Origin: Desulfobulbaceae bacterium
GTDB lineage: Bacteria > Desulfobacterota > Desulfobulbia > Desulfobulbales > Desulfocapsaceae
Length of the DNA: 50,208 nt
Direction: 5' to 3'
Assembly: GCA_008933635.1 (NCBI GenBank)
Contig: WBUQ01000014.1
Location: 1 to 50,208, forward strand
The notes beneath the pieces are model-generated. The model was given only the letters and a program-made list of their open reading frames with translations, was not told the DNA's origin and searched no databases. Positions 2,645 to 31,701 of this stretch are shown one piece after another. How positions within the stretch are numbered: the stretch's first letter is position 1; the number at the start of each line of letters is the position of its first letter. The translations under genes were made by a program, and so were the position numbers.

Positions 2645-3682
2645 TTACTTACCGTCGTAAGCCGCTTTGATAAATGAATTGTCATACGCCTCCTCTACCT
2701 TGAGTCCTGAAGGAAGTGCAGCATAATGGACAAGAAGATCGAAAGTCTGTTGCCACTGGGCGGGATCCATGAGGCCAATCTCATTGGGGCCTGCCCCTAA
2801 AATAAACGGCCGCATGGCTTTGAAGCTTGCCAACTCAATTTCACGCTTTAGCCCGGGAGTAACCTTGAGCATCATATCGACATATTTGTCCGGTTCAGCC
2901 AATGACGCCTGCCATGCTCGCAACAGGCCTTTTATATATTTATTGACCAACTCAGGTCGCTCCTTGATGAGCTTTTCCGAGGTGAACACCACATTGCCCA
3001 TCAGCTGGATCCCATAATCAGCAGGATTGATAGTGTCGATCTTTTTCCCTTCCAGAGCGACCTCAACTGGTTGCCCGTGCAAATAAACCGGCAGAGCGTC
3101 TACCTGCCCGGAAAATAACGGGGCCATACTGAAAGTGACTGGGACTTTCTTGATTTTTGTGGCATCGATGTTGAGTTTGGCCACAAGAGCATCAAACATC
3201 GGTTCCACATTCGTCCCTGCCATTGTCCCAACCTTCTTGCCGATCAGATCGTGAGGAGTCTTGATGCTGCTTTCCTGCAACGACATCCAACCGACCGGGC
3301 TGAAGCGTAACTCGGCAAAGATGGCGACAATTGGCACCCCGTTGGCTCGCGCTTGTAACAGCTGGTCCCCGCCTGTGATGCCGAATTGTTCGGCTCCGGA
3401 CGCAACAAGCTTAATCGGGTCTGCCTCAAATCCTCCAGGTTTTATCGTGACATCAAGTCCCTCTTCTTTCCAAAAACCTGCCTGCTGTGCAATAATCGAC
3501 CCGATATATGTTACACCAGGCAACCATTTGAGCCTGGCAACTACAGGCTCCAAGGCGGAAGATTTGCTTTTTTCCTCTGAATGGTTGTCACAACCCATCA
3601 ATAAATAAAACAACAGCAAAGCGACGGGAAGGATTCGCCAAAGAGATTTCTTCATGTACCTCATTTTTATCATGTACCTCAT
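2645..3682 (-). CDS. NMT1/THI5-like ABC importer substrate-binding lipoprotein
   Basis: About 345 residues with an N-terminal signal ending in a lipobox (LLMGC), so probably lipid-anchored and facing the periplasm. The mature part resembles the NMT1/SsuA-type solute-binding family (GVTYIGSIIAQQAGFWKEEGLDV near the front; GKKVGTMAGTN in the middle), which feeds importers for thiamine precursors, sulfonates, nitrate or similar small molecules. It sits with matching permease and ATPase genes. Four in-frame ATG codons (3682, 3673, 3664, 3655) lie in a duplicated 18-base unit. The first has a strong GGAGGAG 9 bases upstream, in the end of the previous gene; the last fits the signal peptide best. 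Confidence 0.8.
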   Translation of the reverse strand: MRYMIKMRYMKKSLWRILPVALLLFYLLMGCDNHSEEKSKSSALEPVVARLKWLPGVTYIGSIIAQQAGFWKEEGLDVTIKPGGFEADPIKLVASGAEQFGITGGDQLLQARANGVPIVAIFAELRFSPVGWMSLQESSIKTPHDLIGKKVGTMAGTNVEPMFDALVAKLNIDATKIKKVPVTFSMAPLFSGQVDALPVYLHGQPVEVALEGKKIDTINPADYGIQLMGNVVFTSEKLIKERPELVNKYIKGLLRAWQASLAEPDKYVDMMLKVTPGLKREIELASFKAMRPFILGAGPNEIGLMDPAQWQQTFDLLVHYAALPSGLKVEEAYDNSFIKAAYDGK

Positions 3683-3688
3683 TTTTAT
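3653..3688 (-). repeat. Tandem 18-bp duplication over a start region
   Basis: Two exact head-to-tail copies of an 18-base unit (catgtacctcatttttat on the plus strand). Read on the coding strand, each copy carries a GAGG-like ribosome site followed by ATG, so the duplication doubles the initiation signal of the lipoprotein gene and adds six residues to the frame without breaking it. Confidence 0.85.
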
Positions 3689-4564
3689 TTACTCCTCCAT
3701 GGTTACGAAAATCAGTTTATCCTCATAATTTATATTCAATCCAGCGTGTTGCCGCACTAAAGGTTCCAGAAAGTCACGCCACAATTCAATCTGCCCTGCC
3801 AACACTTCCGGCGGAAAATGCCAAAGAAAGGAAAAAGTCGTAAACAAATCCTGCTCAACCACCTCTTCAGAACCCAGCCCGCTTAAAGCGCTCAGGACCG
3901 TGCTTGCTGGAAGAAAAAGTTTTGATGGAAGAACCTTGAGAGTAAACACCTGATTCAAAGAAAAAAGAATGTGTTCAATCTCTTCAGCGAAACCAAAATC
4001 GCCGTCGTACACATCAGTTCGTGGTAAGTTGCTTTGCCGGCGAAACGCAGGAAGAATGGTTTGGTATATATCGTTTTGCAAAATCGAGATTGACACGGCC
4101 ACGATGACAAGCATACCGCCCGCGTTAACCCTCGCTAAGCAGCGCTCAACAAAATTTTTTCTATCACGGAAATAGTACATGACGTGAGAAGCGATAACGA
4201 TGTCGAAACATTCATTTTTTTCTTTGTCCCAGTCTTCAAATCGTTCCTCCAATATATGGACATTCTCAAATCCCTCAAATCTACCATATAAGTCGTGCGC
4301 AGCATTTTCTGCCGGTTCAAGAATTGTTATCTGAATCTCTTTCTGCTGCTCTTCGGAAAATTGCAAGATGCGGTTGTCAATCCATCCTGTCCCCCCTCCA
4401 ATATCCAGAATTTTTATTCTGTCAAATCTTGCACAGAGCTTTGGCAGGACGAACTCGCTGAGCATGTCTGCTATCATACTGGTTTTACTTGTAAATTTTA
4501 TGTATTTGAGATATCTGGCGTATCCGATTGTCTCATGAGATGGTTTTATTGAAACTTTCAACAT
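3689..4564 (-). CDS. Class I SAM-dependent methyltransferase
   Basis: About 291 residues with a Rossmann-type SAM site (KILDIGGGTGWI near residue 52) and downstream acidic and hydrophobic motifs (FDIVIASHVMYYF near 125). It lacks the winged-helix dimerisation domain of the two other methyltransferases in the operon, so it is a different subfamily. The gene lies between the permease (24-base gap) and the lipoprotein (6-base gap), an unusual place for a modifying enzyme inside an importer operon. The acceptor could be the imported compound. That is inference. Confidence 0.75.
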   Translation of the reverse strand: MLKVSIKPSHETIGYARYLKYIKFTSKTSMIADMLSEFVLPKLCARFDRIKILDIGGGTGWIDNRILQFSEEQQKEIQITILEPAENAAHDLYGRFEGFENVHILEERFEDWDKEKNECFDIVIASHVMYYFRDRKNFVERCLARVNAGGMLVIVAVSISILQNDIYQTILPAFRRQSNLPRTDVYDGDFGFAEEIEHILFSLNQVFTLKVLPSKLFLPASTVLSALSGLGSEEVVEQDLFTTFSFLWHFPPEVLAGQIELWRDFLEPLVRQHAGLNINYEDKLIFVTMEE

Positions 4565-4588
4565 GGCATTCCACCCAAGGGTTACTCG

Positions 4589-5389
4589 TTATTCGCGATG
4601 CGTTAGTCCCATTTTCCTAAAAGTCGCTCGCTCTATAAAACAAACAAATTGATAAAATCCGATACCTGATGCAGCGGCAAAAAAAACCGCTGCAAAAAGC
4701 ATTGGAGTATCAGTCCGGTATGAGGAAGAAAGGATTTGGTAGCCGATGCCTTTATCCGCACCAGCCAATTCGGACACGATCGCCCCTATGACACTGAACG
4801 AAGCCGATATCTTGAGGCCTGAGAAAATAGCTGGCAAAGCGCTCGGAAGCCTTGCTTTCCAGTAAAGTTGAAACGGTGTCGCTCCCACCATTTTCATAAG
4901 ATCGACCATTTCCGGCGAGGTATTCTTGATACCTGTAGCACAATTAATTGTCATCGGGAAAAAGCAGATAAGAGCAGCCATGACCACCTTACTCCCAAGT
5001 CCGTTTCCAAGCCAAATGATTAAAAGTGGAGCTATAGCCACTAATGGCACTGCTTGAAGAGCGACAAACATGGGCATCGCTGCTCGCTCTACTAGACGCC
5101 ACACTCCAAAAAAAGAGCCTGTAAAAAAAGCAGCTCCACATCCGAGTGCGAACCCGAGTATTGCCTCGAGTAAGGTGATACCGGCCTCATGGAATAACAA
5201 GGGAAATTGCGCAATAATAAGGTTGAAGATTTCAGTGGGAGGCGGGAGTAAATATCGCGGGATATTAAACAACCTTACCGCTATCTCCCAACAAGCCAGA
5301 ACGACGCCCGGCACGATAAAGTCAGTTGCATGAGTGCTTAACAGGCGCAGTACAGCAGGAAGGAGATTGTCGATTTGTGAATTATTCAT
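4589..5389 (-). CDS. ABC importer permease, SsuC/TauC-like
   Basis: About 266 residues with several hydrophobic membrane segments and the cytoplasmic coupling loop (EAA-like: EMVDLMKMVGATPFQLYWK, then a conserved LP near residue 190) typical of inner-membrane permeases of the nitrate/sulfonate/taurine class. The start is placed at ATG 5389 because it overlaps the ATPase stop as ATGA; a TTG six bases upstream is possible. It should form a homodimeric channel with the ATPase encoded upstream and receive substrate from the NMT1-like lipoprotein. Confidence 0.85.
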   Translation of the reverse strand: MNNSQIDNLLPAVLRLLSTHATDFIVPGVVLACWEIAVRLFNIPRYLLPPPTEIFNLIIAQFPLLFHEAGITLLEAILGFALGCGAAFFTGSFFGVWRLVERAAMPMFVALQAVPLVAIAPLLIIWLGNGLGSKVVMAALICFFPMTINCATGIKNTSPEMVDLMKMVGATPFQLYWKARLPSALPAIFSGLKISASFSVIGAIVSELAGADKGIGYQILSSSYRTDTPMLFAAVFFAAASGIGFYQFVCFIERATFRKMGLTHRE

Positions 5390-6171
5390 AGACAATTTTC
5401 TTGCTGAGCGTGCAACTTTGTTGCTTTACGTAAGGAGCCCCGGACACGCAATAAAAGCGAATCAAATTCAGGACATTCCATAAGCTCAGGAGTTCTTGGC
5501 CGAGGGAAATTCACCTGAAATTCCTGATAAATCTGCGCGGGTTTGGAAGAAAGGACAATGACGCGATCCGCAAGAAAAACAGCCTCCACCAGATCGTGGG
5601 TCACAAAAAACATAGTAGCCCCTGTATTCATCCAAATTCGTTGCAACTCTAAATTCATCCGTTCGCGATTGAATTCATCTAAATCAGCAAAAGGCTCATC
5701 GAGAAGAAGTAAATCTGGCTCTGTAACTAGTGCCCGTGCTATAGCAACTCTTGACTGCATCCCTCCAGACAGTTGATATGGATGGTATGATGCATACTTT
5801 TCCAGTGCCGTGATTTTCAGCATTTCACCGATGACATTTGAAGCCAGGCTTTTCCCTTTCACCTCAAAAGGCAATTCTATATTTTCTCTTACAGTACGCC
5901 AGGGAAACAAAACAGGTTGCTGAAAAACAAAACCAATTCGTCCTTCTTCCTGTGCTCTCAGGGGAGAAGCTCCGTCAATATCAACAGCACCTTCATAATC
6001 ATGTTCAAGCCCGGCAAGAATTCGAAGTAATGTGGTCTTTCCACCACCAGAGGGACCGATAATGGTGACACAGGCACCACGCTCCACACTACAATGGATG
6101 CCATTAATGATGCATTGGTGTTTTCCGTCTCTTAATTTCTGAGAAAATGAAAGGTCCTTGATGCTGATCAT
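5386..6171 (-). CDS. ABC importer ATPase, SsuB/TauB-like
   Basis: About 261 residues with all nucleotide-binding motifs: Walker A GPSGGGKT (residues 39-46), Q-loop (FVFQQPVLFPW), signature LSGGMQ, Walker B LLLLDEP and the H-loop THD. It powers uptake through the permease encoded just downstream. It is the first gene of the importer/methyltransferase run. I see no good ribosome site before its ATG. It is separated from the upstream AAA+ gene by 89 bases containing palindromes. Confidence 0.88.
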   Translation of the reverse strand: MISIKDLSFSQKLRDGKHQCIINGIHCSVERGACVTIIGPSGGGKTTLLRILAGLEHDYEGAVDIDGASPLRAQEEGRIGFVFQQPVLFPWRTVRENIELPFEVKGKSLASNVIGEMLKITALEKYASYHPYQLSGGMQSRVAIARALVTEPDLLLLDEPFADLDEFNRERMNLELQRIWMNTGATMFFVTHDLVEAVFLADRVIVLSSKPAQIYQEFQVNFPRPRTPELMECPEFDSLLLRVRGSLRKATKLHAQQENCL

Positions 6172-6260: not shown

Positions 6261-7718
6261 TTACAATTCGAGATCCTGCTCCACGAGATACCCTCTGCAA
6301 TCATTGACGGCTCTTCTGCAGGCCCGCCGCATCAGAATTTCAAGATCGCGGAAATTCCCGTTGTCGTAATCAAACCCCCGTAACGCTCGAAGGGCCTGCT
6401 CACCGATTTCTTTAATTTTCCCCTCTGGATTAAACGCCACCATCTGCATCAACACATCCAAGATGTATGCCAATTCCAGTTCTTTCCGTTCATTGAGTGA
6501 GGGGATGCGTATGACGAAGTTAAATCGACGAAATAGATCGTTTCGGAACCGCCGTTCATGGTCCTCCTTTGCGCTATCCACAGACCAATCGTCAATTGGA
6601 CGGTTTGTGGCGGCCACGACCAGCATGGGGCAGAACAAGGGGTCGCCTGACCAGCCCCGGGGAGAGACTTGATAGTCATCAAGATAAGCAAGAAGTTTGG
6701 CCTGAACGCTCAGGCTGGCGTCGCCTATCTCGTCGAAGAAGACGACTCCACCCATGCGCTCCAGGAGAAACCCCTTTTGCCCGTCGGGGTGCGCACCGGT
6801 GAAGGCACCGGCGCAATAGCCGAAGACATCATATTCAAAATCGCTTTCACGGTGGAGATATTCCGGACATGGTACCCGCTTAAACGGCCTTGAGCGTTCT
6901 TCGCCGGGTCCGGGGGATGTTGCCCACGCCAGGTAACGGGCAACGAGGGTTTTTCCTGCGCCAGATGGCCCAAGCAGAAGTACCCTGGGCAGACGATTCC
7001 GATCAGCGTTGAATTTTTGCCGAATTACTTTCTGAAGTCGGTCAGAAAAGGTCTGGAGCATGGCACGTCTTGCTTCGCTATCCATCCTGACATCCAATGC
7101 CAGAGCTGGCTCCAGTGTTTCATGGATCTGCTCACGTCGCTGCTTCACGTTTTTGCCTATGATATTGCGAAACATCCGCTTGCATTCGTCTAGCTGATCA
7201 AGAACCTCACCCATTTTCCCAGATGGTGAAATTGTTAAAAATGAGGGGTCATAATCAATAAGGTGATTCACAGAACTCAATTTACCATAAGAAACAAGCT
7301 CCCCGACCCGCATTCCCTTTTCTTCCTTGGGAGGGGCAGGTTGCCCCCAACACCCAATTTGTTCCAGAAGCCACTGCTTCCAATCACTCGTCGATGGCTT
7401 TTTGGAAATAAAAATAAATTTATAAGCAATCTCACCTTCTTCAATTAGTCCACAGCGCCAGGATAGAATCACCGATGGATCCAGCGGCATCGCACCCCAA
7501 AGAATAACAACTCTTCTGGGGGCTCTCTTGCCAATCCAGGGCTTTTTGGGATGGCTCATGCAATATTGATTGAACTCGGTGTTATCATTCACCAGAATAA
7601 AAGCGATATTACACTCACTCGCGATTGCTGAAGCATCTGAGAAAAGAGCTGTGTCCGGCCAACCTGACACCGGAGAAAGCTTGAAAGGTTCATTCTCAAC
7701 TTTAGCTTTCAAGGGCAT
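6261..7718 (-). CDS. AAA+ sigma-54-activator-like ATPase with novel N-domain, no HTH
   Basis: A 485-residue protein. Residues 1 to about 205 match nothing I know. Residues 210-470 form a bacterial enhancer-binding-protein AAA+ domain: Walker A GPSGAGKT (250-257), a perfect GAFTGA loop (304-309), Walker B VVFFDE (325-330), sensor I ATN (370-372), an arginine-finger region RFRNDLFRRF (390-399) and a sensor II segment GNFRDLE (454-460). In this family GAFTGA is the loop that engages sigma-54. The protein ends right after the AAA+ domain, so the usual Fis-type DNA-binding domain is absent and it would have to act from solution or through a partner. It follows the sigma-54-like gene by 9 bases with a good AGGAG site. 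I infer that it remodels that factor on the fused polymerase. Confidence 0.8.
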   Translation of the reverse strand: MPLKAKVENEPFKLSPVSGWPDTALFSDASAIASECNIAFILVNDNTEFNQYCMSHPKKPWIGKRAPRRVVILWGAMPLDPSVILSWRCGLIEEGEIAYKFIFISKKPSTSDWKQWLLEQIGCWGQPAPPKEEKGMRVGELVSYGKLSSVNHLIDYDPSFLTISPSGKMGEVLDQLDECKRMFRNIIGKNVKQRREQIHETLEPALALDVRMDSEARRAMLQTFSDRLQKVIRQKFNADRNRLPRVLLLGPSGAGKTLVARYLAWATSPGPGEERSRPFKRVPCPEYLHRESDFEYDVFGYCAGAFTGAHPDGQKGFLLERMGGVVFFDEIGDASLSVQAKLLAYLDDYQVSPRGWSGDPLFCPMLVVAATNRPIDDWSVDSAKEDHERRFRNDLFRRFNFVIRIPSLNERKELELAYILDVLMQMVAFNPEGKIKEIGEQALRALRGFDYDNGNFRDLEILMRRACRRAVNDCRGYLVEQDLEL

Positions 7719-7727
7719 GTCTCCTAA

Positions 7728-8807
7728 TTACACTGACTCAATTCGAACAGTTATGCTCTTCAAAGCGGACTTGGCCATTCCAATCCCTCCTTTAAAACGT
7801 GCGCAGAGAAGGTGAAGTTTTTCTTCAGGTGTCAGTGTTGAAAATTCCTTACTCTTGATACTAACCAGATCTTTTTTACTAAAATCAGGATAGTTCAGTT
7901 CTGGACTGATCCAGCTTCCGCCAGCTTCTCGATAGTACTTCGTTCCTACCTCAACAAGCCAAGAGAGCTGATACTCGGACGAAAATACATTAGAAAGGGG
8001 CATGTTATATGCTGGCCACAGCAACCAAATCTTATCAAGAAGCCTGGAAAACTGCGATTCATCGATTCCCTGCCAAACTGGTCTTTCATCTTCCATTGCC
8101 GCCAGAACCGCGTCCTCATGTTCTTCTTCCGATAAAGGCACCTCGTCCTCAATTCGTTTATTTATTCTCTGCAATAAGCCTTTTTGCAGAACAACTGGAT
8201 TTTCAGAAAAGCGATCCTCTCTAAGGACGAAATTTCCAGGAAAGGGGTTCTGCAAAAACGCCTGTTTTTCCGTCTCAAGCCACTGGGCCAAGGCATCAAG
8301 GAAGGTCTTTAATTTATTGACATAGATTTGGATTTCAGGTGAAAGCTTGCTGGAGAACCAGGAAGGCCCTTCAAACCAGCAACGCATCCCCCCATTGAGC
8401 GCGGGCACCACCGTGATCGCATACACTGTATTGGTCAGCAGGGTAACTGAATCGTCAAACAGGGTATCACGGCCAAACAGGTTATCATAATCAAGGGACT
8501 GTGATTCGTCTTCCTGTACAGATTCCGGTTCATCTTCCTCGTCCTTTGCCTCAATGTCAGTCTCTTGTTCAGACTCATCTATAGATGCAATCTTCTCCTC
8601 TTCGGTCATCGTGTCGTCGAGCTTATCGTTTTCGGAAAAATCATTGAAATCAATAAACGCCTTCAGCAAAAAAGGAGACAACGAAAACACCATCTGCCGC
8701 GTATGAATAAGGTCGGTGCGTTTTTCTCTCGTTTTTTCAAGATTTTTACCTAAATGCTGCCCCTTGCTCTTTTTCTGGTCAGTTGACCGTATGTGCCCTT
8801 GATTCAT
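7728..8807 (-). CDS. Putative divergent sigma-54-like factor
   Basis: A 359-residue protein with no obvious close family. Its architecture follows sigma-54. Residues 34-56 (around TRQMVFSLSPFLLKAF) resemble the glutamine/leucine-rich region I, including the S/T-P-x-L-x-x-A core. Residues 57-105 are a long acidic stretch like region II. Residues 128-190 resemble the core-binding domain (an NGG-x-W strand pair, then a helix ending AQWLETEKQAFLQ, compared with the sigma-54 VEQQQAFF segment). The C-terminus (GIGMAKSALKSI) is a possible degenerate relic of the RpoN box, but the canonical ARRTVAKYR is absent. It lies between the fused polymerase gene (15-base gap) and the GAFTGA ATPase gene (9-base gap), with a strong AAGGAGG site. 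The identification is by eye, not by a search. Confidence 0.55.
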   Translation of the reverse strand: MNQGHIRSTDQKKSKGQHLGKNLEKTREKRTDLIHTRQMVFSLSPFLLKAFIDFNDFSENDKLDDTMTEEEKIASIDESEQETDIEAKDEEDEPESVQEDESQSLDYDNLFGRDTLFDDSVTLLTNTVYAITVVPALNGGMRCWFEGPSWFSSKLSPEIQIYVNKLKTFLDALAQWLETEKQAFLQNPFPGNFVLREDRFSENPVVLQKGLLQRINKRIEDEVPLSEEEHEDAVLAAMEDERPVWQGIDESQFSRLLDKIWLLWPAYNMPLSNVFSSEYQLSWLVEVGTKYYREAGGSWISPELNYPDFSKKDLVSIKSKEFSTLTPEEKLHLLCARFKGGIGMAKSALKSITVRIESV

Positions 8808-8822
8808 CGTTGATGTTCCTCC

Positions 8823-11800
8823 TTAGGCCAGGTTGCTAGGTAACCGGCTTGCCATGATCCGCGCAAACGGGGACGCTAGATCATCTTCCAGACTTCCATG
8901 AACAGCTTCGAGAAGACATGTCCATTGATTGGGACCAATCAGCCTTGAGATAGCCGACCTATTTTCTTTCCATACCTGATTAAGAGCCTTCCCCTTACTT
9001 CGATGGATTATGAGCCAAATGAGCAGAAGATGTCTCTGGTCTATATCTGCGTACGCTTTAATCCCTTGAATCCTCTTGACAAGTTTTTGCGCATCATCCT
9101 TTTGTACAAACCAGTTGCAGGCGGACTTGGCTGATTTTTTTTCCCCTTCCTGGGTCGCTGAATAATCTTTCCCGTTGAGAAGGGAAACGACTTCATCTAT
9201 GGAAAGCTGTCTCTCCGCCGTATGAAAACTTTGCATGGAGAGTTGTGTTCCCCTCTCTCCAAAGGACTGGGCGGCTATCAGACCTGCTGGATACCCTTTC
9301 GGTGAGGTATCATAACCGGATATCTTTCCATAGCAGGCGCTGCAGATTATTCGATCTTTTTGCCAGAGGCATTGCGTTAATTCACGCGCACCTGAAAATT
9401 TAACCTCACAGTTTCCTGGCGCCACAGTCCACTCCCAGCCTGCCAATACCAAAGAGCGGGTCAAAGCTCCCGCTTTGCCAGTTCCGAGTTTTTTGTCGAG
9501 CATGGAGCTCCGAGCATTCATAGCTGCCAGGAAAGAAGAGGCCGGCGTCATACCCTCCACGAGAGATTCCCGGATGAAGAAACTTTCAGGGGCAAGCTCA
9601 AACCCGGTGTCTCCCGGAGCAAGAAAGCCTCGAGCGCTTACGATCTGACGTACCTGTTTATCGCCACGGGCACCACTCACTGCAAGTGTGGCAAATCCAT
9701 GGCCAGCCACTTCAGGTTTCTGCCTGGTCAAGTCCTCCAAATTGCTCAAGACCATATCGCCCAAAGATTTTGTTGCTTCAGTAAGATTCGATATCTCTGG
9801 ATGTGATGAGATTGCCGCAAGTAGTTGTTTCGTTTCTTCCTTATATTCTTTTTGCAGCTTTTTCAGTTCGGAGAAACCGAAGGAAAGTCCGTGTTCCGTG
9901 ACCACTCTCAGAGCAAGTTGCATCCATTGTGGAATAATTTTGCCCGCATCTTCTGCATGCTCTGAACAAATATGGCTCAGCAAGGCCTCTCCATGCTTTT
10001 TGCCCCAAGGGGAAGGAGTGGACATCAACCTGTTACACTCTGCACAAGCAGACTGAGATTCGGAGAACTCTCCAACTAACCCACGTAACTCACTTGTTGC
10101 TCCCTTTTGAAGAGAAAGGAGAAAATGGCCAGCGACAAAATCCTGATCAAAATGTGCCAACGGCTTATTGTTAGCAGCTGAAATCAGGTTACATTTTCGC
10201 GTTGGCAGCATCAACTCAATCGCTTCCTTCTGTTCCTCATCGCTCCATGGAAGATGGATGGCCATCTCGTCGCCATCAAAATCTGCCCCAAATGCTTTGC
10301 AGACCAACGGATTGATTTTCATGGCAAGACCATTTCCAGGAGGAATCGGAATTGGCCGGAAACTCATGATGCTGTACCGATGCAGCGATGGCTGACGGTT
10401 GAGGATAACGGTAGTATCTTGAAATTTATCCAGAAACCGCGAAATGATGCTGTGAGCCAGCTGCAAGTGCGCCTCCGAAATCCTTGTGTTACACCATGGG
10501 GTCGCCGTCCAGAAATCCTCACTCACTACCAATTCTTCAATTGATTTGGGTATAGAAAGGTCTACATCGAAAATGGCCTTAATGAGGATGTCAGCCCAGG
10601 TATTCTGTACAAATTCACTGAGAATTTCGGGATGAGCGACAATTTTTGGCCCAAGGAGGGGGATCAAAACCTCCGTAGGGAGACCGCAGGCATCCCATGG
10701 CAGGGTGGGATCGGGGACAATCACCAGACGACCTGAAATATCGACCCTCCTGCCGAGAGCTGCTCGACGGAGTAATCCGAATTTGCCGAAAAGTCGACCA
10801 TGAAGAAGCGTGAAAAGCTTCGCAACAGCTTTTTCAATCTTCCTCGATGAATCGTTTTGCCTGGCAAGGGCAATGATCTCCCTGTACAGATCGGTCAACT
10901 GCTCTGGTTGCGGCACAATGGCGGTTCCAATTTTTGCAAAGCCCCGGAAACGGTATTTTAGGGGGAGTACAGGCAGATACTCGAAATCCGGGGGAGGCGG
11001 ATATTTTTTACCAAACAGGAGGGGGGAGAAATGGGGATAAGGGACCGGATGGGGTAATTTGATATGCCCCCAGGAGTTTGGATCCCATTCAGAAACGCTT
11101 ACCCGTCCGAATATTTTTTCATCGCAAAGCCCCCCCGGGGTGGCAAAAAATTTTTGTCTCGCATTATCACAGACAAGATATGCTGAGGAATGTTTAGAAC
11201 AAGTGAGCTGAAACTCAGCTACCTTATGGCAAGGGATATCACCCTCAAGACTCTTTTGCGAGTAAGCGGAATATGAAGTTTTGCCTATCGTAAAAGCAAT
11301 GCTCACTGTTCCTTTGGTCCGGCTATATTGAAATGAGATTGTTTTCTTTCGGCGTTTTCCTTCCTCCTGTAAAGGCTCCACCACCCATTTAACCTCTCTG
11401 GAGTCTTTGCCCGTGGTCCCGCTTGGAATAGGCATGTTCTCGGTTTTCTGTTCCATCTGATAGCCATTGTGTCGCAGTACATCCTGTACGGTGACTCCTG
11501 TCCTCCCCCTTTGCGATTCACCGGTTGTTCGCATTCGCTGGAGGTGATACCTGCAGTTTGCCATAGGGCAGTGATAGATACTCTCCAAGCCAAGATCCCA
11601 CATATTGAGACTGGCGACTTCCCTGCCCATTTGCTGAAGAGTTTGTGAAGACAACCAGTTGAAGCGATATGACTCCTCCCCGGTTTGTTGGAGATCTACC
11701 CCCAAGGCAAATAAATGGTCTTTAATGGATTGAAAGGTCTGTCCTTGCGTTAGCGGTTTTTTGCTTGAAACCGCCGGATCAGATTTGATTGTCAAAATGC

Positions 11801-14702
11801 TTTCAAGATTCGCTCGTGCCCGATTGGCGGCCAGAGCCCAGATTTCCATTTCCCCGACCCGCTGCCCCCCTTTTCGTCGCTTACCGCCTACCGGCTGCCC
11901 GGTAACGATATTATAAGGAAGCTGGCCGGCTGTTCCTGCACTGCCCCTGACATTGGCTTTCTTAGCTGCTACATGTTTGAGCCGGACAATGTGTTGATAG
12001 CCAACAACCACCGGAGCTTTGGTAACCTTTCCTCCGGGTAGGGAGAGAAACATTCGGCCATATTCATCCAAAATAGGTTTTTTGCTCTTCCCATTGAAAG
12101 CTTGAACAGCCCTTTGGAAGTATTCCCAGCCGATAGAATTGAAAGCTCTACCAACATTCTCCGGTAAGCAGGAATCATCAAGCCGGGCCAATAAACCGAA
12201 ACTGGTTTCCAACAACTGGCCGAGATTCATTCGCGATATGACCCCATGAGGATTAAGGATCAAATCAACGGTCCGACCGCGAAGATCGGGTGGCAGTCTT
12301 TTGTCACGAGGTAACCGCGGGAGATCTTCAGAATCACCAATCAGGGAGACCACTCCCTTATTCCCATAGCGGCCCATCAATTTGTCGCCCACCATAAGTG
12401 GGAAGTTTCTCCGAATCGACCAGTGGAGCGAGCCGCCGAGTAAAGTTGACGGCGGGTCCGTAAACTTGATGTCAACGAGTTCCCCATCGTGATCATCGGC
12501 AAAGGAAAATGGAGAAACTGCCCCACTTGCCGAATGCTTAAAAAAAACCAGCGGATCGCCTGGATTGATTCTCCCCTTTTTACGCAGGCCGTCTTTTTCA
12601 TAATTCAGGACCTTAAAGGCTTCTGCGAAAGTATTCTGAAAAACCGGAACGGTAGGATTATATCCAGGAAGAATATATGCTGAGCGCTCCTCTACCGTTT
12701 CCCAGTCGAGGATTCTCTTGTCCACCAGATCCCGGTTGACGACAATGGCGTCTTCCATATTCCATCCATACCAGGGCATATAGGCGACCAGCAGATCAAC
12801 CCCGGGTGCAGCCGCATCGCAGGCGGAGATGATACCAGTGTCCCTTTGCGGTTTGGTAATTTTCTGCACCATATCTTCATGTCCGGTTTGAATACGCGGT
12901 GGCAAGGAGGCTCTGATAGGAACAGCCTGCTTGAGATTTTTTGCCCCCATCATCGACCGTGGTCCATCGTTGTGCTGATAAAAAGGGACTAGGGAGGCGC
13001 CATATCCGAGATCGCCGTCGACCTCGGTTTGCTCGTTATCAGGCCGATACAATTGCCCTTGGGAATCCGTTCGAACACCTCGGGCTAAATGAAGGGTGAT
13101 GCCGACTTTCTTCGACTCCGGTGTTTCCACCGGACAGATGATCCCCTGATAACTGGGATGATTCTGACGAAATATAGCTGGAAGCTGGTCTATAACGTCT
13201 TTTGGATATGCATAGCGCTGGAGAGAAGTCAATTTGGCAAGGGCTTCCAGGCTGTTCAGCGGATCAAAAAAATGAAGCCAACCGGAATTGATATAATCAG
13301 AGGTGGGAATAAGCTTGTATGAAGATGCTAATTGACACAGGTTGTTCCATTGCGACGAAACTGGGAGAGATTTCTTTTTCCGCTGAATTGTATCTGCGAG
13401 GAAATTATGAATTCGTTCAATTAACAAAGCACTGTATGTATACAGTCGCTGCCATGCAATATCCTGCACATCAATTGCCTCTTTGTTGATACTTGTTTCC
13501 TTATACTCGTTGAGTATATTTTTCGTGAACAATTCCCGTTCACTCACCACCTGGCCAGTGCCAAAACGCAATTTAAATTTTTCGCTAACATCTATTAATG
13601 ACTCCAAGCTATCTTCGCAAATTGAGTTTTCTGAACCAGATTTGAAAGGGAAATCAACGTAAAGAGTACCCTTTGAAACAAAACGAAGGAATTCCTCCCA
13701 ACTTCGCACACCTTGTTTTTTTGAATGTTTACGAATCTTCCAGAGACCGGGTTTGCCTACAAGTCGAGGATGCCATATCCATTTACCGGCATGCCCTTTC
13801 AGAGAATTGTCTGTATGAAGAATAAAAACACCCTGAAAGGGATAGGGGAATGTAAAGCGTAATACTTTGCCGCTTCCCGACCAGCGAACTTCGATTGTCG
13901 CTGTCAACGTCCGATTGTTTCGTAAACAAAAACTGACTTCATCGTTTCCAGGGCAACGCATCGTAACATTTAGAGTTCCTTCAAAATCTTCATGCCCGGG
14001 AAATAACTTCTCCCCGAGGAGACTATTCAGCTGTTGTTCAAGACAATATTCAAGAGATGGAGGGTGCAGAAGGTAAGGAGCAGTAATCAACTCATTCTTC
14101 GGGAGGGGCAGGATATCACGCTTAAAGGCAAATCGTATAAAGGGATTGTCTTGGTTGGACCAAGCTGTAGTGACAAGGTCTGACGGTGTGAAAACTTTAC
14201 ATAACGGTATTGAATCTTGATGCCCTGAGGATTTATCAAATGTCGCAAGAGAAATAAGTTTGACAAAAAAGTTCGGATGACTTTCTGGCTCTAGCAATAA
14301 CTTGTACAGATGTAATATACCAAGCCTTTCACTTTTTGGTTCGGTCAGTGAGTTCCCAGGTAGATAAGGTAGGAGATGATACGAATGCGGTTGTTGCTGA
14401 GGAAGAAGGGAATTACATATTCTCTCCCATTCATCCTTCGGAATTTCTACAGCACTTTCTTCAACTCCACGGTTCGATTTTAAAGGAGGAGTAACCGCCT
14501 CAACCAATGCTCGAAACGCAGCCCTCTTCGGTGATTCATCATCGAGAATTTGTCCTCCAAAGAAATTGTATCCGTTAAAATCTCTGTCTAGTTTTAGAAT
14601 ATAGCGTTTTGCTGGTTCTGCCGATTTGTCGTCGAGTTCAATAACAATAAAACTGAATCTGGAATGCTTTCTTCCTGATGTTGTTAATTCTTTTTGTATC
14701 AT
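8823..14702 (-). CDS. Single-chain beta-beta' fused multisubunit-type RNA polymerase
   Basis: About 1959 residues (positions below count four more, from an upstream TTG). Residues 20-75 look like a degenerate Nudix domain. The beta half runs from about 240 to 1040: ICPVETPES (526-534), AYMPWYGWNMEDAI (644-657), VGDKLMGRYGNKGVVS (775-790), LNPHGVISRMNLGQLLE (820-836) and QPVGGKRRKGGQRVGEME (940-957). The beta' half runs from about 1045 to the end: DEKIFG (1198-1203), GRRVDISGR (1321-1329), LNRQPSLHR (1438-1446), the catalytic metal motif ADFDGDEMAIHLP (1477-1489), a trigger-loop/bridge-helix region (about 1679-1756, SGARGDKQVRQ onward) and GLIAAQSFGERGTQLSMQSFHT (1811-1832). All three aspartates are present, so it should be catalytically active. 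The beta' N-terminal zinc ribbon and part of the clamp coiled coil appear shortened. The ATG at 14702 has a GGTGG-like site. No alpha or omega gene is nearby. Confidence 0.93.
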   Translation of the reverse strand: MIQKELTTSGRKHSRFSFIVIELDDKSAEPAKRYILKLDRDFNGYNFFGGQILDDESPKRAAFRALVEAVTPPLKSNRGVEESAVEIPKDEWERICNSLLPQQQPHSYHLLPYLPGNSLTEPKSERLGILHLYKLLLEPESHPNFFVKLISLATFDKSSGHQDSIPLCKVFTPSDLVTTAWSNQDNPFIRFAFKRDILPLPKNELITAPYLLHPPSLEYCLEQQLNSLLGEKLFPGHEDFEGTLNVTMRCPGNDEVSFCLRNNRTLTATIEVRWSGSGKVLRFTFPYPFQGVFILHTDNSLKGHAGKWIWHPRLVGKPGLWKIRKHSKKQGVRSWEEFLRFVSKGTLYVDFPFKSGSENSICEDSLESLIDVSEKFKLRFGTGQVVSERELFTKNILNEYKETSINKEAIDVQDIAWQRLYTYSALLIERIHNFLADTIQRKKKSLPVSSQWNNLCQLASSYKLIPTSDYINSGWLHFFDPLNSLEALAKLTSLQRYAYPKDVIDQLPAIFRQNHPSYQGIICPVETPESKKVGITLHLARGVRTDSQGQLYRPDNEQTEVDGDLGYGASLVPFYQHNDGPRSMMGAKNLKQAVPIRASLPPRIQTGHEDMVQKITKPQRDTGIISACDAAAPGVDLLVAYMPWYGWNMEDAIVVNRDLVDKRILDWETVEERSAYILPGYNPTVPVFQNTFAEAFKVLNYEKDGLRKKGRINPGDPLVFFKHSASGAVSPFSFADDHDGELVDIKFTDPPSTLLGGSLHWSIRRNFPLMVGDKLMGRYGNKGVVSLIGDSEDLPRLPRDKRLPPDLRGRTVDLILNPHGVISRMNLGQLLETSFGLLARLDDSCLPENVGRAFNSIGWEYFQRAVQAFNGKSKKPILDEYGRMFLSLPGGKVTKAPVVVGYQHIVRLKHVAAKKANVRGSAGTAGQLPYNIVTGQPVGGKRRKGGQRVGEMEIWALAANRARANLESILTIKSDPAVSSKKPLTQGQTFQSIKDHLFALGVDLQQTGEESYRFNWLSSQTLQQMGREVASLNMWDLGLESIYHCPMANCRYHLQRMRTTGESQRGRTGVTVQDVLRHNGYQMEQKTENMPIPSGTTGKDSREVKWVVEPLQEEGKRRKKTISFQYSRTKGTVSIAFTIGKTSYSAYSQKSLEGDIPCHKVAEFQLTCSKHSSAYLVCDNARQKFFATPGGLCDEKIFGRVSVSEWDPNSWGHIKLPHPVPYPHFSPLLFGKKYPPPPDFEYLPVLPLKYRFRGFAKIGTAIVPQPEQLTDLYREIIALARQNDSSRKIEKAVAKLFTLLHGRLFGKFGLLRRAALGRRVDISGRLVIVPDPTLPWDACGLPTEVLIPLLGPKIVAHPEILSEFVQNTWADILIKAIFDVDLSIPKSIEELVVSEDFWTATPWCNTRISEAHLQLAHSIISRFLDKFQDTTVILNRQPSLHRYSIMSFRPIPIPPGNGLAMKINPLVCKAFGADFDGDEMAIHLPWSDEEQKEAIELMLPTRKCNLISAANNKPLAHFDQDFVAGHFLLSLQKGATSELRGLVGEFSESQSACAECNRLMSTPSPWGKKHGEALLSHICSEHAEDAGKIIPQWMQLALRVVTEHGLSFGFSELKKLQKEYKEETKQLLAAISSHPEISNLTEATKSLGDMVLSNLEDLTRQKPEVAGHGFATLAVSGARGDKQVRQIVSARGFLAPGDTGFELAPESFFIRESLVEGMTPASSFLAAMNARSSMLDKKLGTGKAGALTRSLVLAGWEWTVAPGNCEVKFSGARELTQCLWQKDRIICSACYGKISGYDTSPKGYPAGLIAAQSFGERGTQLSMQSFHTAERQLSIDEVVSLLNGKDYSATQEGEKKSAKSACNWFVQKDDAQKLVKRIQGIKAYADIDQRHLLLIWLIIHRSKGKALNQVWKENRSAISRLIGPNQWTCLLEAVHGSLEDDLASPFARIMASRLPSNLA

Positions 14703-15038
14703 TGTCACCACCAAGATGCTGGTTAGTTGATTCTGAAAACGGTCATTTTTTAATTCAAGGTTGCTTACACCGTTCTTCTCAAGATAGTCTAATGTCCGCC
14801 CTGAAATCTCAACCTACTGATATTTAATAAATTTCACGAAAAATTTATTAGTATTGTATTGCGAAGCATGTGGTGTGTAAAAAAATTCTATAAAAATGAA
14901 AAGACCATGGTATACGCTGTTTAGCCGAACAAACATACACATCACCGATGAGCAAACCATGGCCAAAGAGAGTCTATCGTTAGACTGGGAGAAGTGAAAG
15001 GTCTTTTGCATGATGGCCGCGAATTTTTAAAACAAGTT
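14703..15038. promoter_or_regulatory. Upstream region of the RNA polymerase operon
   Basis: This region is AT-rich. It holds a perfect 10-base inverted repeat (arms 14825-14834 and 14841-14850, 6-base spacer), about 125 bases before the polymerase start, which may be an operator. A weak TTGAGA-N17-GACTAT promoter-like pair reads on the minus strand at about 14780-14810. No -24/-12 sigma-54 consensus is visible. A 33-codon plus-strand frame (14896-14997) has no ribosome site and is not called as a gene. Confidence 0.35.
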
Positions 15039-15384
15039 GCATGCGAGTGCCGAAGTCATGCCGGAAGCGATCTGATAGCGATGTTACGTCCATTTCCTGC
15101 GCAAAGCCGTGGATTATCTCCCCCGCCAAGGTGATGACGATTGCCATCGAGAGCTGCGTTGGCTGTATGATCGCCTAGATCTGAACGAGGCGCGCAAGGA
15201 CCTGGCCAGCTGGCTGCAACGCTGGCAGGAAGTATCCCAGGCTATGCGCCTGGGTATAGGAGAACATCGAAGAAACCCTCTCTTTTTACAGTCTGACCTA
15301 TGGGCATCACAAGCATCTCAAATCAACCAACATGCTTGAGAGGCTCAATGAAGAGATCAAGCACCGTACGCGGGTGGTGCGGAT
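15039..15384 (+). pseudogene. IS256-family transposase, decayed 5'/middle fragment
   Basis: This is the middle of an IS256-type (mutator family) transposase. It includes RCYVHFLRKAVDYLPRQ, DDDC, ELRWLYDR and later LTYGHHKHLKSTNMLERLNE. Two adjacent codons have become TGA and TAG just before the RCYVHF segment (about 15075-15080). The frame shifts around 15240-15255, and a further TAG follows. The front of the gene is missing. The coding match stops abruptly at about 15384 after RTRVVRI. The matching C-terminus lies 1.45 kb away on the minus strand. Confidence 0.8.
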
Positions 15385-18961: not shown

Positions 18962-20311
18962 TTAGCGAAACTTCTTTGGATCGATAGCAAGTTTTTCAAT
19001 CTTCGACCGGAAAGTATTTAGCGGAATACCTGCTTTCTCCGCTGCCCTGGTGACATTGCCGCCGGACTGAGTAAGCAGTTTTTCGAAATATAGTATTTTC
19101 AAATCGCTATAACTCATTTTCCCGAGATGATCATTGTCAATTGGTTCAGTTGAAGATTGATATTCACTAAACCAATGAATAAGTTTCTCGCCATCTTGCT
19201 TACTATAAAAGAGTGGTAATATCTCATCCTTATTAAGAGCGTCGTCAACATACCCTTTCGCTTTTATAGTTCTTGATTTGAAAAGAATCAAATCCTCATG
19301 ACCTCTGTATCCAAGAAGGTAAGATAGCATTCGAAAACCTTTTTCAATTTGATTAATAATTGCTTGAAATTTTTCTTTCATCTCTCCATTGTGATCGAAT
19401 ATCGTTTCTCCAAGGTCAAATGGTGTGCTATCATTTTGAAAATTGATATCACAATGGTAATTTTTCAGTTCCTCTTCTAACCTATCAGTAGGCACTTTAT
19501 TTACATAATTAAGATCAATCCATAATGAAAACATATCTGCTGGATGCAGTTTGGTCAATTTTTCATCGACCATTGGTAATGAACCTCTAGTCAACTTCCC
19601 TGGGAATTTTTTTTCAAACATTATTCTTTGCCATTGCATAATTTTCCCAACTCTATCAACTTCCCTCACGTTCCCTGGCCAGTTATAACCAAGTAATGAG
19701 AGTATTTCGTATGGTCTAAGTTGCCTGAAGAAATCTTCGAATTTTTCGGCAAAAAAATAGAGTACATCCATTCTTCTATCGTGAAGAGGAGTTACATTAA
19801 ACGGGGAAAACCGATATAGCAATTCTTCTCTAAGCTTTTCCTCCCTGTTAGTTGCGGCGATAATATGCACCTTAGCTTCATCTTCTTTATCGCTGCCGAT
19901 AGCACGGAACTTTCCTGTCTCTACGAATGTCAAGAGCATTGCCTGAACATTCTCCGGCAATTCCCCAATTTCATCGAGAATTAGCGCCCCTCCATTTGTT
20001 TTCTTTATGAGTCCTTGTTTATCTGTGTTCGCACCAGTAAACGCTCCCTTTGTGTGTCCAAATAATTCTGATCTTGCCAAGCTTGAATCAGCGCCTACAA
20101 AATGACTACAATCAAGGTAAAGCACGGGGACTTTGCTTCCATATCTTTCTCGATAAATGGTTTTGTATCTATAAAGAAAATAACTTTTCCCTACTCCTGA
20201 AGGCCCAGTAACGAGAATAGGGGAATCTCCGGCAACATTGCAAAAAATATCGTAAGAATCTAGTAGTTTTGCCAACCCTGGAGGGGTTATTATCTTTTTA
20301 CCATTGACCAT
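18962..20311 (-). CDS. Sigma-54-dependent transcription activator (AAA+ with Fis-type HTH)
   Basis: A 449-residue enhancer-binding protein without an N-terminal sensor domain. The AAA+ domain begins almost at once: Walker A GPSGVGKS (36-43), GAFTGA (89-94), Walker B ALILDE (109-114), sensor I ATN and a WPGNVRE sensor II. A middle region of about 150 residues is unlike other activators. The C-terminus is a Fis-type HTH (GGNVTRAAEKAGIPLNTF, about 420-440). It lies between the integrase (30-base gap) and the sites it probably binds. I infer that it switches on the alpA-DUF3631 operon and so element excision or replication, through the host sigma-54. Confidence 0.88.
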   Translation of the reverse strand: MVNGKKIITPPGLAKLLDSYDIFCNVAGDSPILVTGPSGVGKSYFLYRYKTIYRERYGSKVPVLYLDCSHFVGADSSLARSELFGHTKGAFTGANTDKQGLIKKTNGGALILDEIGELPENVQAMLLTFVETGKFRAIGSDKEDEAKVHIIAATNREEKLREELLYRFSPFNVTPLHDRRMDVLYFFAEKFEDFFRQLRPYEILSLLGYNWPGNVREVDRVGKIMQWQRIMFEKKFPGKLTRGSLPMVDEKLTKLHPADMFSLWIDLNYVNKVPTDRLEEELKNYHCDINFQNDSTPFDLGETIFDHNGEMKEKFQAIINQIEKGFRMLSYLLGYRGHEDLILFKSRTIKAKGYVDDALNKDEILPLFYSKQDGEKLIHWFSEYQSSTEPIDNDHLGKMSYSDLKILYFEKLLTQSGGNVTRAAEKAGIPLNTFRSKIEKLAIDPKKFR

Positions 20312-20341: not shown

Positions 20342-21472
20342 TCAGACCACTTCTTTTTTTGACTGCTTCTTTGTGGCCTCGCTGATGATATTATCAACCT
20401 TTTCTGCTGCTGCCCGTAAAGCATCATCCCTGAAATGGATGTACCGTTGCGTCATGGCAGGGCTCTTGTGCGTCATGAGTTTTTGCAGGGTAAACATGTC
20501 CACCTGTCCACTACTCGCAAGCATCGTTGCGTATAGATGCCGTAGACCGTGCATAGGGCGAAAGTCTGACGGTAGTCCTGCCTCCTTCTTGATTGCGTTG
20601 AAAGTCTTGTTAGCATCCCTTCTCGGTCCTCCGTTGCGGGCAGGGAAGACCCATTCAGAGTTGCTGGCGACACTTTCAAACACCTCCCTTGCCGCTCTGT
20701 TCATGGGGATCTTCTGCGATTTGCCGCCTTTGGGTTCCATGATCGAGATGAACCCCCGCTGAAAGTCCAGATCCTCCCACTTGAGCTTGAATATTTCGCC
20801 TCGCCTCATTCCGGTGAAGAGGGCAATTTTCATCATGGCCGCTGCCGCTGTCCTGTGCGTTGTATCGAGAACGGCAAGCAATCGCTGTAGCTGGTCCGTG
20901 TCGAGATCCTCGGTCTTGATGTTGTCCACACGTGGCAGTCCGATTGAAAACGATAGAGGAGGGCATAGACCGCGATCAGCACCGAAACGTAGTATGCGGC
21001 GGAGTAGCCCCAGGATATGCTTGACCGTTTGCGGGCTTTTGGTTTTCATCAGCTTGATGCGTAGACGGTCAGTGTCGAGCTTGATAATCTCAGCCGGTTC
21101 CTTGCTGCCGAATGATTTTTCAAGGAACAGAGTCCAACGGCTCAAATCGGGTTTAGATGCCTCGCCCCCTGGAAGGTGCTTCCGGTATTCGTTCCATATC
21201 TTCCTGACCGTCCATCTCTCTTCGTATTGTGCCCTTTCTGCTCTCTTCTCGGCCCCCGTCTTTTCCTTGCCCTCGATCATTTGCCCGCGTAGCGTGGAAG
21301 CTTTTGCAGGGGTCATAGCGTCCCGATACTGTCGCCCGACCTGAGTCTCAACAACCTTCCCGTCACGTTTGAAGACGGCATAATATACCTTTTCTGTGCC
21401 GGTTCCACCGATACGCTGCCGAATGCGAAAAAACACCCCAGGGTAGCTGGTCTTGTGTCTGGTGTTGTTCAT
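20342..21472 (-). CDS. Tyrosine recombinase (integrase)
   Basis: About 376 residues. It has an N-terminal arm-binding/DUF4102-unlike region, a core-binding domain (about 100-190) and a catalytic domain with the signature residues: R in TGMRRGEI, K in the following beta hairpin, HGLRH, a second H in THKSPAM and the tyrosine in TQRYIH. It should catalyse integration and excision of the island at the nearby tRNA-like site. The ATG at 21472 follows a strong GAGGGGGAG site, so a longer frame from a TTG at 21493 is not used. It is transcribed away from the attachment site. Confidence 0.92.
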   Translation of the reverse strand: MNNTRHKTSYPGVFFRIRQRIGGTGTEKVYYAVFKRDGKVVETQVGRQYRDAMTPAKASTLRGQMIEGKEKTGAEKRAERAQYEERWTVRKIWNEYRKHLPGGEASKPDLSRWTLFLEKSFGSKEPAEIIKLDTDRLRIKLMKTKSPQTVKHILGLLRRILRFGADRGLCPPLSFSIGLPRVDNIKTEDLDTDQLQRLLAVLDTTHRTAAAAMMKIALFTGMRRGEIFKLKWEDLDFQRGFISIMEPKGGKSQKIPMNRAAREVFESVASNSEWVFPARNGGPRRDANKTFNAIKKEAGLPSDFRPMHGLRHLYATMLASSGQVDMFTLQKLMTHKSPAMTQRYIHFRDDALRAAAEKVDNIISEATKKQSKKEVV

Positions 21473-21486
21473 TGTCTCCCCCTCGT

Positions 21487-21518
21487 TATCCAACCATTAT
21501 CCAACCCTATATCCAACC
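21487..21518 (+). repeat. Three short direct repeats before the integrase
   Basis: Three copies of tatccaacc begin at 21487, 21498 and 21510, spaced 11 and 12 bases apart (about one helical turn). They lie between the integrase start and the tRNA-like attachment site, where arm-type integrase or excisionase sites usually occur. They may also regulate the integrase gene. Confidence 0.6.
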
Positions 21519-21645
21519 TTCAAAATATATTATGGGGAAAAAAGAGGAAAGTCAATACCATTAAATATCATTACTAAGATCAAGTAATAGCGTTCAAATA
21601 TAAAATTGTCCTTGTATATACGGGTTGTTTGGGGAATAGTAGTCT

Positions 21646-21695
21646 TCGGCCTCCGAAGCCAAAGGTCGTGCGTTCGAATCGCATCCCGTCTACCA
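21646..21695 (+). tRNA. 3' part of a tRNA-Arg(CCG): island attachment site
   Basis: This sequence reads as the 3' part of a tRNA. It has an anticodon loop CTCCGAA with anticodon CCG, a T arm GTGCG-TTCGAAT-CGCAT, an acceptor strand CCCGTCT, a discriminator A and an encoded CCA at 21693-21695. Upstream, the D arm and the 5' acceptor strand do not pair well: positions 2-71 and 28-42 mismatch and the D stem is poor. So this is likely the attachment-site copy (attR-like) left by the integrated island, not a working tRNA. The intact gene should lie at the other island end, left of this window. Confidence 0.7.
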
Positions 21696-31433: not shown

Positions 31434-31492
31434 TCATGCAGGCGATGAAGATACCATTTGACCCGGAAGGGAAACTCCGTTATCCTGGTCCT

Positions 31493-31643: not shown

Positions 31644-31701
31644 ACTCAACTGGGCCTCCGTGGATCAGAGGCACGACGGTTGCATCTGTGGAGAAATCAG
31701 G

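Follow-up and report, generated by a model that had tools for sequence, protein, structure and literature searches.

Sigma-54 transcription in bacteria is known as a process that runs on the host core enzyme, and YonO is reportedly a single-chain two-barrel RNA polymerase. The non-virion RNA polymerases (nvRNAPs) of jumbo phages have no alpha subunit, and AR9 gp226 is required for promoter initiation (PMC7598289). P23-45 gp64 and gp96 and the crAss-like gp66 are single-chain two-barrel phage polymerases (PMC10770324), mReC are deep-branching multisubunit RNA polymerases of Caudovirales (PMC7481178), and RtcR/PspF-like activators of the CARF-AAA-HTH type are linked to defence (PMC4012209). The locus described here lies on contig WBUQ01000014.1 (assembly GCA_008933635.1) of a Desulfobulbaceae bacterium, a complete contig of 50,208 nucleotides that is referred to as the window. 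Three open reading frames (ORFs) on its minus strand encode a single-chain beta-beta' RNA polymerase (gene 1), a 359-residue protein that is proposed to be a sigma-54-like factor (gene 2) and an AAA+ ATPase (gene 3) of the bacterial enhancer-binding protein (bEBP) type. On balance, and with modest confidence, we favour the reading that this trio is a private transcription machine of the sigma-54 type, gated by ATP and carried on a tRNA-associated island.

The operon and its relatives

In the reading direction, the polymerase is followed by the 359-residue protein and then by the ATPase, with gaps of 15 nt between genes 1 and 2 (8808-8822) and of 9 nt between genes 2 and 3 (7719-7727). The first ATG of gene 1, at 14702, has GGTGGTGACA in front. 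A preliminary description of this DNA had reported three ORFs on one strand with these two gaps, a single-chain polymerase, an AAA+ ATPase with a GAFTGA loop and a mobile-island setting. The coordinates are confirmed; gene 1 is an uninterrupted ORF in which Pfam Rpb2 domains are followed, in order, by Rpb1 domains; gene 3 matches Sigma54_activat (E 5e-25) and contains GAFTGA; and an integrase, a tRNA-Arg gene and a step in G+C content support an island setting. The host genome also holds ordinary rpoB and rpoC genes and an ordinary sigma-54.

The trio recurs elsewhere. A polymerase search at E <= 1e-45 found no genome other than the window's own, either in 257 members of the class or in 395 genomes sampled from the phylum; in another class of the phylum it found two of 389 genomes, here called G995 and G1001. 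Further, overlapping samples gave no additional genome (G1001 alone in 194; G995 and G1001 in 228). All three polymerase-bearing genomes hold relatives of genes 2 and 3, adjacent where the contigs allow, so that the co-occurrence on which the preliminary description had staked its claim is found. Identities to the relatives are 42-50% for gene 1, 32% for gene 2 and 44-51% for gene 3. A 3,007-base contig of G1001 carries the C terminus of the polymerase, a gene 2 relative in full (32%) and a gene 3 relative that is cut off after its first 246 residues (44%), and these parts of three genes lie on the same strand and in the same order as in the window. G995 has the polymerase followed by the gene 2 relative on one contig (C43), the tail of gene 2 followed by a full gene 3 relative (51% over residues 7-483) on another (C641), and a third contig that ends inside the polymerase. 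A chance grouping is very unlikely, because two other genomes have homologues of all three genes and keep their order wherever the contigs show it. The orthology of gene 3 is specific, since its next best match in its own genome is only 35% identical. The trio-bearing genomes number at least three, and a full count of the family is not possible.

Among viral contigs, whole-protein queries found one phage polymerase locus for gene 1, none for gene 2 and one AAA+ match for gene 3 (33% over residues 245-460). The catalytic-loop pattern gave 11 viral loci and query A1 gave eight, and the three patterns aimed at the family (trigger-loop, A5 and A3) gave none. No place covering 80% of the query was found for gene 1 in plasmids (66 records) or phages (39 records), nor for gene 2 in plasmids; against the genome contigs, gene 2 gave 53 candidates and no relative. 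Query A1, run against the genome contigs, gave no fused chain by a two-motif test among the best 80 loci of at least 594 stretches; the same test did not recognize the fused phage chains L010, L013 and L026. These viral contigs L010, L026 and L013 have single ORFs (1456, 2084 and 2769 residues, respectively) that seemingly span beta- and beta'-type regions, and L013 seems to hold large inserts, perhaps inteins.

Polymerase, ATPase and the fold of gene 2

Gene 1 matches the Pfam families Rpb2_3, Rpb2_6, Rpb1_2 and Rpb1_5 above their curated cut-offs and Rpb2_7 and Rpb1_3 below them, and its two halves match solved beta and beta' chains. The hallmarks of two-barrel polymerases, the DFDGD loop, the bridge helix, the trigger loop and the beta lysines, are all present, and to judge by its sequence the enzyme looks catalytically intact. 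The catalytic loop FGADFDGDEM keeps all three Asp residues, and DFDGD is kept in both the window and G995. The residue before this loop, Asn in the four canonical rows shown, is Gly in the window and G995, as it is in some phage enzymes at loci that were selected by that pattern. Both conserved lysines of beta are found in GDKLMGRYGNKG, a segment that we take to have the active-site role it has in beta. The trigger loop TQLSMQSFHTAE is nearly invariant across three family members, and its usual Arg is a Gln in gene 1. The G995 relative lacks the first 200 or so residues, its listed ORF beginning near residue 201. A Nudix-like look of residues 1-200, which include a loose Nudix-box-like stretch, has no Pfam or PDB support and is not claimed.

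The clamp-helix region of beta' is the main docking site of sigma factors. In gene 1 this coiled-coil region has 49 residues, versus 80-85 in 25 of 25 canonical beta' chains; a short clamp region (57-64 residues) is also found in 9 of 12 phage beta' chains. The window and G995 chains sit together in a beta' tree on a stem of 4.0 substitutions per site. This stem falls outside both the 25 canonical rows (clade support 100/99) and the phage groups (9 and 3 rows, with phiKZ and AR9 not among them), and since the branches are long, its exact placement is unsure. A duplicated host polymerase was considered and rejected, the beta' part lying far outside the 25 canonical chains, the host's own included. 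A phage origin of gene 1 is conceivable but not shown: the chain nests in neither phage group, and its placement on long branches is unsure.

Gene 3 contains the motifs GPSGAGKT, GAFTGA, GGVVFFDEIGD and FRNDLFRRFNF, and has the Walker A, Walker B and arginine-finger segments of a bEBP AAA+ core. The Walker segments, the sensor region and the arginine-finger segment FRNDLFRRFNF are kept in the G995 copy. The nearest solved relatives are sigma-54 activators. The nearest model in NCBIfam is RtcR (E 3e-31, far below that model's cut-off), and in PADLOC the ATPase part is nearest to the RtcR/PspF type (E 7e-33). A C-terminal DNA-binding helix-turn-helix (HTH) is usual, but not universal, in bEBPs; none was found in gene 3, where the best activator matches run no further than the end of the AAA+ lid, at residues 467-471 of the 485. 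The N-terminal 210 residues are conserved in all three members (for example LSWRCGL and QLDECK) and match nothing convincing in Pfam, CARF included; this domain may be a sensor.

The assignment of gene 2 depends on its predicted fold. A model of low to moderate confidence, built from the alignment of the three family members, has block means of 50-88 over residues 121-300, with a whole-model mean predicted local distance difference test score (pLDDT) of 53.8 and a predicted template modelling score (pTM) of 0.52. When this model is searched with VIA-align, the 16 best of 35 rows are sigma-54 chains, mostly of one protein (Z 7.9-4.1; the first unrelated row is at 4.0), as are all 14 rows at Z >= 5; unmatched models, too, commonly reach a best Z of 7-8. 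The top row, 9msh_M (Z 7.9, 108 residues aligned, root-mean-square deviation 3.4), places residues 126-277 of gene 2 on residues 271-405 of sigma-54. Five sigma-54 rows end in one register, with an offset of 128 (three at 277/405, one at 276/404 and one at 275/403), while the remaining sigma-54 rows end elsewhere and do not test it. Residue 410 of the host sigma-54 corresponds to residue 404 in the matched chain family. In this register, residues 246-277 align without gaps to residues 380-411 of the host protein, the stretch from the HTH to FFS. That placement ranks first among 452, and of all 151,392 gene 2-by-sigma-54 pairs the 28-mer 250-277 scores highest; 33 of 200 column shuffles reach its score, which is not rare alone. 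Residues 246-277 were chosen after a cropped hhalign had pointed there; the register had come earlier, from VIA-align. Taken alone, the fold match is a lead. The weight of the cross-check lies in fold and sequence agreeing on one register, and the two are partly dependent, because the structure predictor works from the sequence. With both considered, gene 2 probably has a sigma-54-type fold. About 127 residues precede the modelled hairpin, versus 278 in the host sigma-54, and, judged by length only, gene 2 has no room for the usual core-binding domain; this loss and the shortened clamp of gene 1 are matched.

Proposed mechanism and alternatives

In the reading that we favour, gene 1 would be the catalytic core in one chain, with beta and beta' fused and the canonical sigma-docking coiled coil shortened. 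Gene 2 would be its dedicated promoter factor, descended from or folded like sigma-54, with an acidic N-terminal part followed by a hairpin, long-helix and HTH-like body; it would bring gene 1 to its own promoters and hold the closed state. The N-terminal domain of gene 3 would sense a signal, and ATP hydrolysis by its AAA+ ring would remodel gene 2 so that gene 1 could open the DNA; that gene 1 makes RNA and gene 3 hydrolyses ATP is expected from their families. The output would likely be cargo on the same mobile island. A fuller version is tentative, and we put it a little short of an even chance: a second, orthogonal ATP-gated system, in which a deep-lineage fused polymerase, a sigma-54-type factor that is reduced and has given up docking on the host core, and an AAA+ opener of its own travel on mobile islands and switch variable cargo, including Cas10/Csm3-type defence in at least one lineage.

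The cargo differs between the two loci where it can be seen. On contig C641 of G995 (L167 3-6998, minus strand), an NYN gene lies 122 nt after gene 3 and is followed by CYTH-nucleoside hydrolase, Csm3-like and Cas10-like genes and a cut RAMP-like gene, all on one strand, with gaps of 24 and 18 nt plus overlaps; the contig ends inside this module. PADLOC recognizes the Csm3-like (E 2e-59) and Cas10-like (E 4e-40) proteins. Cas10/Csm3-type genes are not seen beside the window trio, and the G1001 contig is too short to show them. The direct repeats listed on two G995 contigs (for L145, 20 of its 28 families) are unlike a CRISPR array, with no search dedicated to arrays. These neighbours suggest that the output in G995 could be an inducible defence. 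A constant trio with differing cargo fits a transcription module with exchangeable cargo, for which two cases are few. The C641 run is itself an odd type III-like set. On another G995 contig, C478 (L145 3012-13377, plus strand), a MotA/ExbB-like channel protein and a lytic transglycosylase occur among small ORFs before the polymerase relative, with a Mu-type transposase, a ParB-like protein and a toprim protein further upstream.

A number of results weigh against a sigma-54-type machine. The single-sequence model of gene 2 is uninformative (pLDDT 38.7), and its VIA-align list has no sigma-54 row, the best matches being unrelated (Z <= 4.8). The three-member model is built on three sequences, one of them truncated; the other four gene 2 models are lower (mean pLDDT 47.6-35.5); and Foldseek gives the three-member model no match below E 0.35, with sigma-54 ranked 21st at E 3.3, and no match at E <= 0.001 among viral models. 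The Pfam sigma-54 families (AID, CBD and DBD) do not match any of the three gene 2 members at E <= 1, and none of Pfam, NCBIfam, PADLOC and PHROGs gives gene 2 a match below E 0.07. With hhalign, gene 2 reaches 0.1% against 23 host-order RpoN proteins, with one row and with three, which is below the best shuffles; this set holds 23 of 24 loci picked by the RpoN-box motif, L125 having been dropped because no ORF with the box was read there. The cropped hhalign score against sigma-54 is equalled by 8 of 60 shuffles, and hidden Markov models of region I and of the stretch from the hairpin to the HTH score the gene 2 family no better than shuffles. The RpoN box ARRTVAKYRE is not seen by eye in the two full-length gene 2 rows, the third row being truncated. 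The sigma-54-like architecture that the preliminary description gave to this protein is unsupported by the sequence statistics and stands as a fold-level lead, one that appears in the model once two relatives are added and is absent from the single-sequence model. A resemblance to region I noted by eye at residues 36-51 was no better than shuffles and is not claimed.

Other points on the same side concern the ATPase, the locus and the sampling. Host sigma-54 activators are expected to be under strict constraint at the GAFTGA loop. Since G995, the one orthologue that reaches the loop (the third copy ends before it), reads GTYTGS, gene 3 is not under such constraint, and the GAFTGA loop given in the preliminary description is not conserved there; the relaxed sequence could reflect a private partner or a changed function. 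No 12-of-14 promoter word is common to the four gaps, and the -24/-12 pattern shows no excess (59 matches versus 77 expected; a sigma-70-like pattern gives 20 versus 19.4). No alpha-like partner was identified, with no search aimed at one. The trio is known from only three genomes, two of which, G995 and G1001, are metagenome-assembled (78-81% complete, 5-6% contamination), and the G995 copy of gene 2 is divided between two contigs, which do not show whether it is intact. In the G995 cargo, Pfam supports NYN, CYTH and the hydrolase strongly, the Cas10-like (E 0.0045) and RAMP-like (E 0.052) proteins weakly, and the Csm3-like protein not at all. The idea that the trio drives the importer and methyltransferase genes next to it in the window is supported by adjacency only, as G995 has other genes in that place. 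As a whole, the earlier interpretation is partly supported.

If gene 2 were unrelated to sigma-54, the trio might not be a joint machine at all: a divergent polymerase, an unrelated acidic protein and an activator of host sigma-54 would have been inherited together, and the fold match would be a chance arrangement of helices. The absence of a significant sequence match between gene 2 and sigma-54, the shallow model and the unconserved GAFTGA loop all fit this explanation, which is nevertheless highly improbable, since the same three genes, in the same order where visible, occur in two classes at 32-51% identity, and sigma-54 rows stand alone at the top of the fold search in a register that is also the best by sequence. 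Another alternative is a dedicated phage-like transcription module, as in the jumbo-phage nvRNAPs. Genes 1 and 2 would then be a core and a specificity subunit reading the genes of the mobile element, and gene 3 would start the operon through the host sigma-54 holoenzyme instead of acting on gene 2. The host does have sigma-54, the island has a second bEBP with an HTH, several phage beta' chains share a shortened clamp region (57-64 residues, 9 of 12), and jumbo-phage polymerases, too, are without alpha, the AR9 enzyme needing gp226 for promoter initiation (PMC7598289). Gene 3, however, has no HTH match and its relatives accompany genes 1 and 2 in all three genomes, the best fold matches of gene 2 are to sigma-54, the three family-aimed pattern scans gave no viral contig and gene 1 nests in neither sampled phage group, which makes this account unlikely.

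It is also conceivable, if distinctly improbable, that the locus is a conflict or defence system in which the RNA made by the polymerase is the effector or a guide, for instance to the Csm3/Cas10-like proteins; genes 2 and 3 would then act as sensor and switch and not as promoter machinery. The one-strand run in G995, from the trio through the NYN and CYTH-nucleoside hydrolase genes to the Csm3-like and Cas10-like genes, would suit such a role, as would listed repeats that are unlike a CRISPR array and the nearness of the gene 3 AAA+ domain to RtcR/PspF-type activators, some of which are tied to restriction systems (PMC4012209). Against it, importer and methyltransferase genes occupy that place in the window, and the Csm3/Cas10-like cargo is seen in one genome only, on a contig that ends inside the module. 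A dedicated ATP-gated transcription machine remains the reading that we prefer.

Island setting and described systems

G+C content, taken per kilobase, is 38-55% in the first 22 kb and 56-68% in the rest, and the step sits at the tRNA-Arg gene, with the integrase and the second activator on its inner side (Table 1). In stretches, the flank beyond the step matches three genomes of the same family (G130, G132 and G138) at 73-80%. The trio is read as sitting on a tRNA-associated island, the other end of which lies off the contig.

Table 1. Features of the trio and of the island around it, with positions on the window
Feature	Position	Strand	Basis or remark
Gene 1, single-chain beta-beta' RNA polymerase	8823..14702	-	1959 aa from first ATG, 1963 aa from TTG at 14714; ORF call, Pfam, structure matches, relatives (identity by segment)
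N-terminal ~200 residues of gene 1	14115..14702	-	no Pfam or PDB match
GDKLMGRYGNKG, beta active-site segment	12354..12389	-	sequence
Clamp-helix coiled-coil region of gene 1	10752..10898	-	comparison with canonical beta' chains
FGADFDGDEM, beta' catalytic loop	10263..10292	-	sequence
Bridge-helix segment	9450..9557	-	nearly invariant in three family members
Trigger-loop segment GERGTQLSMQSFHTAERQLSIDEV	9189..9260	-	nearly invariant in three family members
Gene 2, 359-aa sigma-54-like factor (proposed)	7728..8807	-	ORF call, relatives, model
Acidic stretch of gene 2, residues 66-108	8484..8612	-	three-member alignment
Hairpin, long helix and further helices of gene 2, residues 126-277	7977..8432	-	model matching sigma-54 271-405
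Gene 2 residues 246-277, QGIDESQFSRLLDKIWLLWPAYNMPLSNVFSS	7977..8072	-	gap-free alignment to sigma-54 in fold-match register
Gene 3, bEBP-type AAA+ ATPase, 485 aa	6261..7718	-	ORF call, Pfam; no C-terminal HTH found
N-terminal ~210 residues of gene 3, candidate sensor	7089..7718	-	conserved in three members, no family match
Walker A, GPSGAGKT	6948..6971	-	sequence
GAFTGA loop	6792..6809	-	sequence
Importer and methyltransferase genes, co-directional	2645..6171	-	89 nt past the end of gene 3; counted as cargo from position alone
Second island bEBP	18962..20311	-	N-terminal AAA+ with GAFTGA, middle region, Fis-like HTH; RtcR/PspF models, PADLOC E 2e-41
Phage-type integrase of the island	20342..21493	-	
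tRNA-Arg at island edge	21618..21695	+	

Several other elements were noted along the contig. Broken frames at about 15000-15600, just upstream of the polymerase gene, may be the remains of an IS256-type transposase. The long gap upstream of the trio has two 34-base direct repeats (15817-15850 and 15987-16020), 79% alike and 170 bases apart, and a shorter related word occurs at 19202. A DUF3631 protein (Pfam E 4e-45; 17030-18562, minus strand) is perhaps a replication-type island gene. A cobalamin riboswitch (31479-31656, plus strand; Rfam E 4.5e-27) lies in the host part of the contig.

Genes 1 and 3 are members of known superfamilies, and gene 2 resembles one. No description of the trio was found in open-access literature titles among the matches listed, most subscription papers being outside that scope. 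The combination of three genes matches no described system that was found, within the limits of this literature check. If the favoured reading is right, a dedicated polymerase with a factor opened by ATP would be an independent case of the sigma-54 mechanism; the fuller version would show that the logic of sigma-54 and its activators can be moved wholesale onto a polymerase that is not a cellular core. Given the seemingly reduced factor and the short docking region, the system would allow one to ask which parts of sigma-54 the gating needs, and it would give engineers a fuel-gated expression system that is orthogonal by nature. Through the Cas10/Csm3-like neighbours seen in one relative, a private polymerase would belong to a defence response.

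Each of the described systems shares some features with the trio. Like mReC, gene 1 has divergent beta and beta' parts that are distinct from their cellular homologues, but in mReC these are phage subunits, and the abstract of PMC7481178 names no such trio. The single-chain phage polymerases also have beta- and beta'-type catalytic barrels in one chain, whereas gene 1 keeps many canonical beta and beta' elements; the available text of PMC10770324 describes no operon with an ATPase and a factor. Jumbo-phage nvRNAPs with their fifth subunit (AR9 gp226, phiKZ gp68; PMC7598289) resemble the trio in being an extra two-barrel polymerase, for which no alpha is identified in the trio, with a dedicated initiation protein, which for the trio is a proposal. 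The trio differs in its single fused chain, its place on a bacterial island beside an integrase and its AAA+ partner, and it nests in neither phage group of the tree, in which phiKZ and AR9 are not rows. The defence-linked RtcR/PspF-like activators (PMC4012209) include the best PADLOC match of the gene 3 ATPase part, whereas the N terminus of gene 3 matches neither CARF nor another domain and no HTH was found. In comparison with sigma-54 and its bEBPs, gene 2 has no RpoN box, no core-binding length and no sequence-level match, and gene 3 has no detected HTH. What the trio shares with them is an AAA+ ATPase with Walker and arginine-finger segments and, in the window, a GAFTGA loop, and a partner with an acidic N-terminal stretch whose model has a sigma-54-like hairpin, long helix and HTH-like part, here set beside a polymerase that is private and fused and is not the host core.

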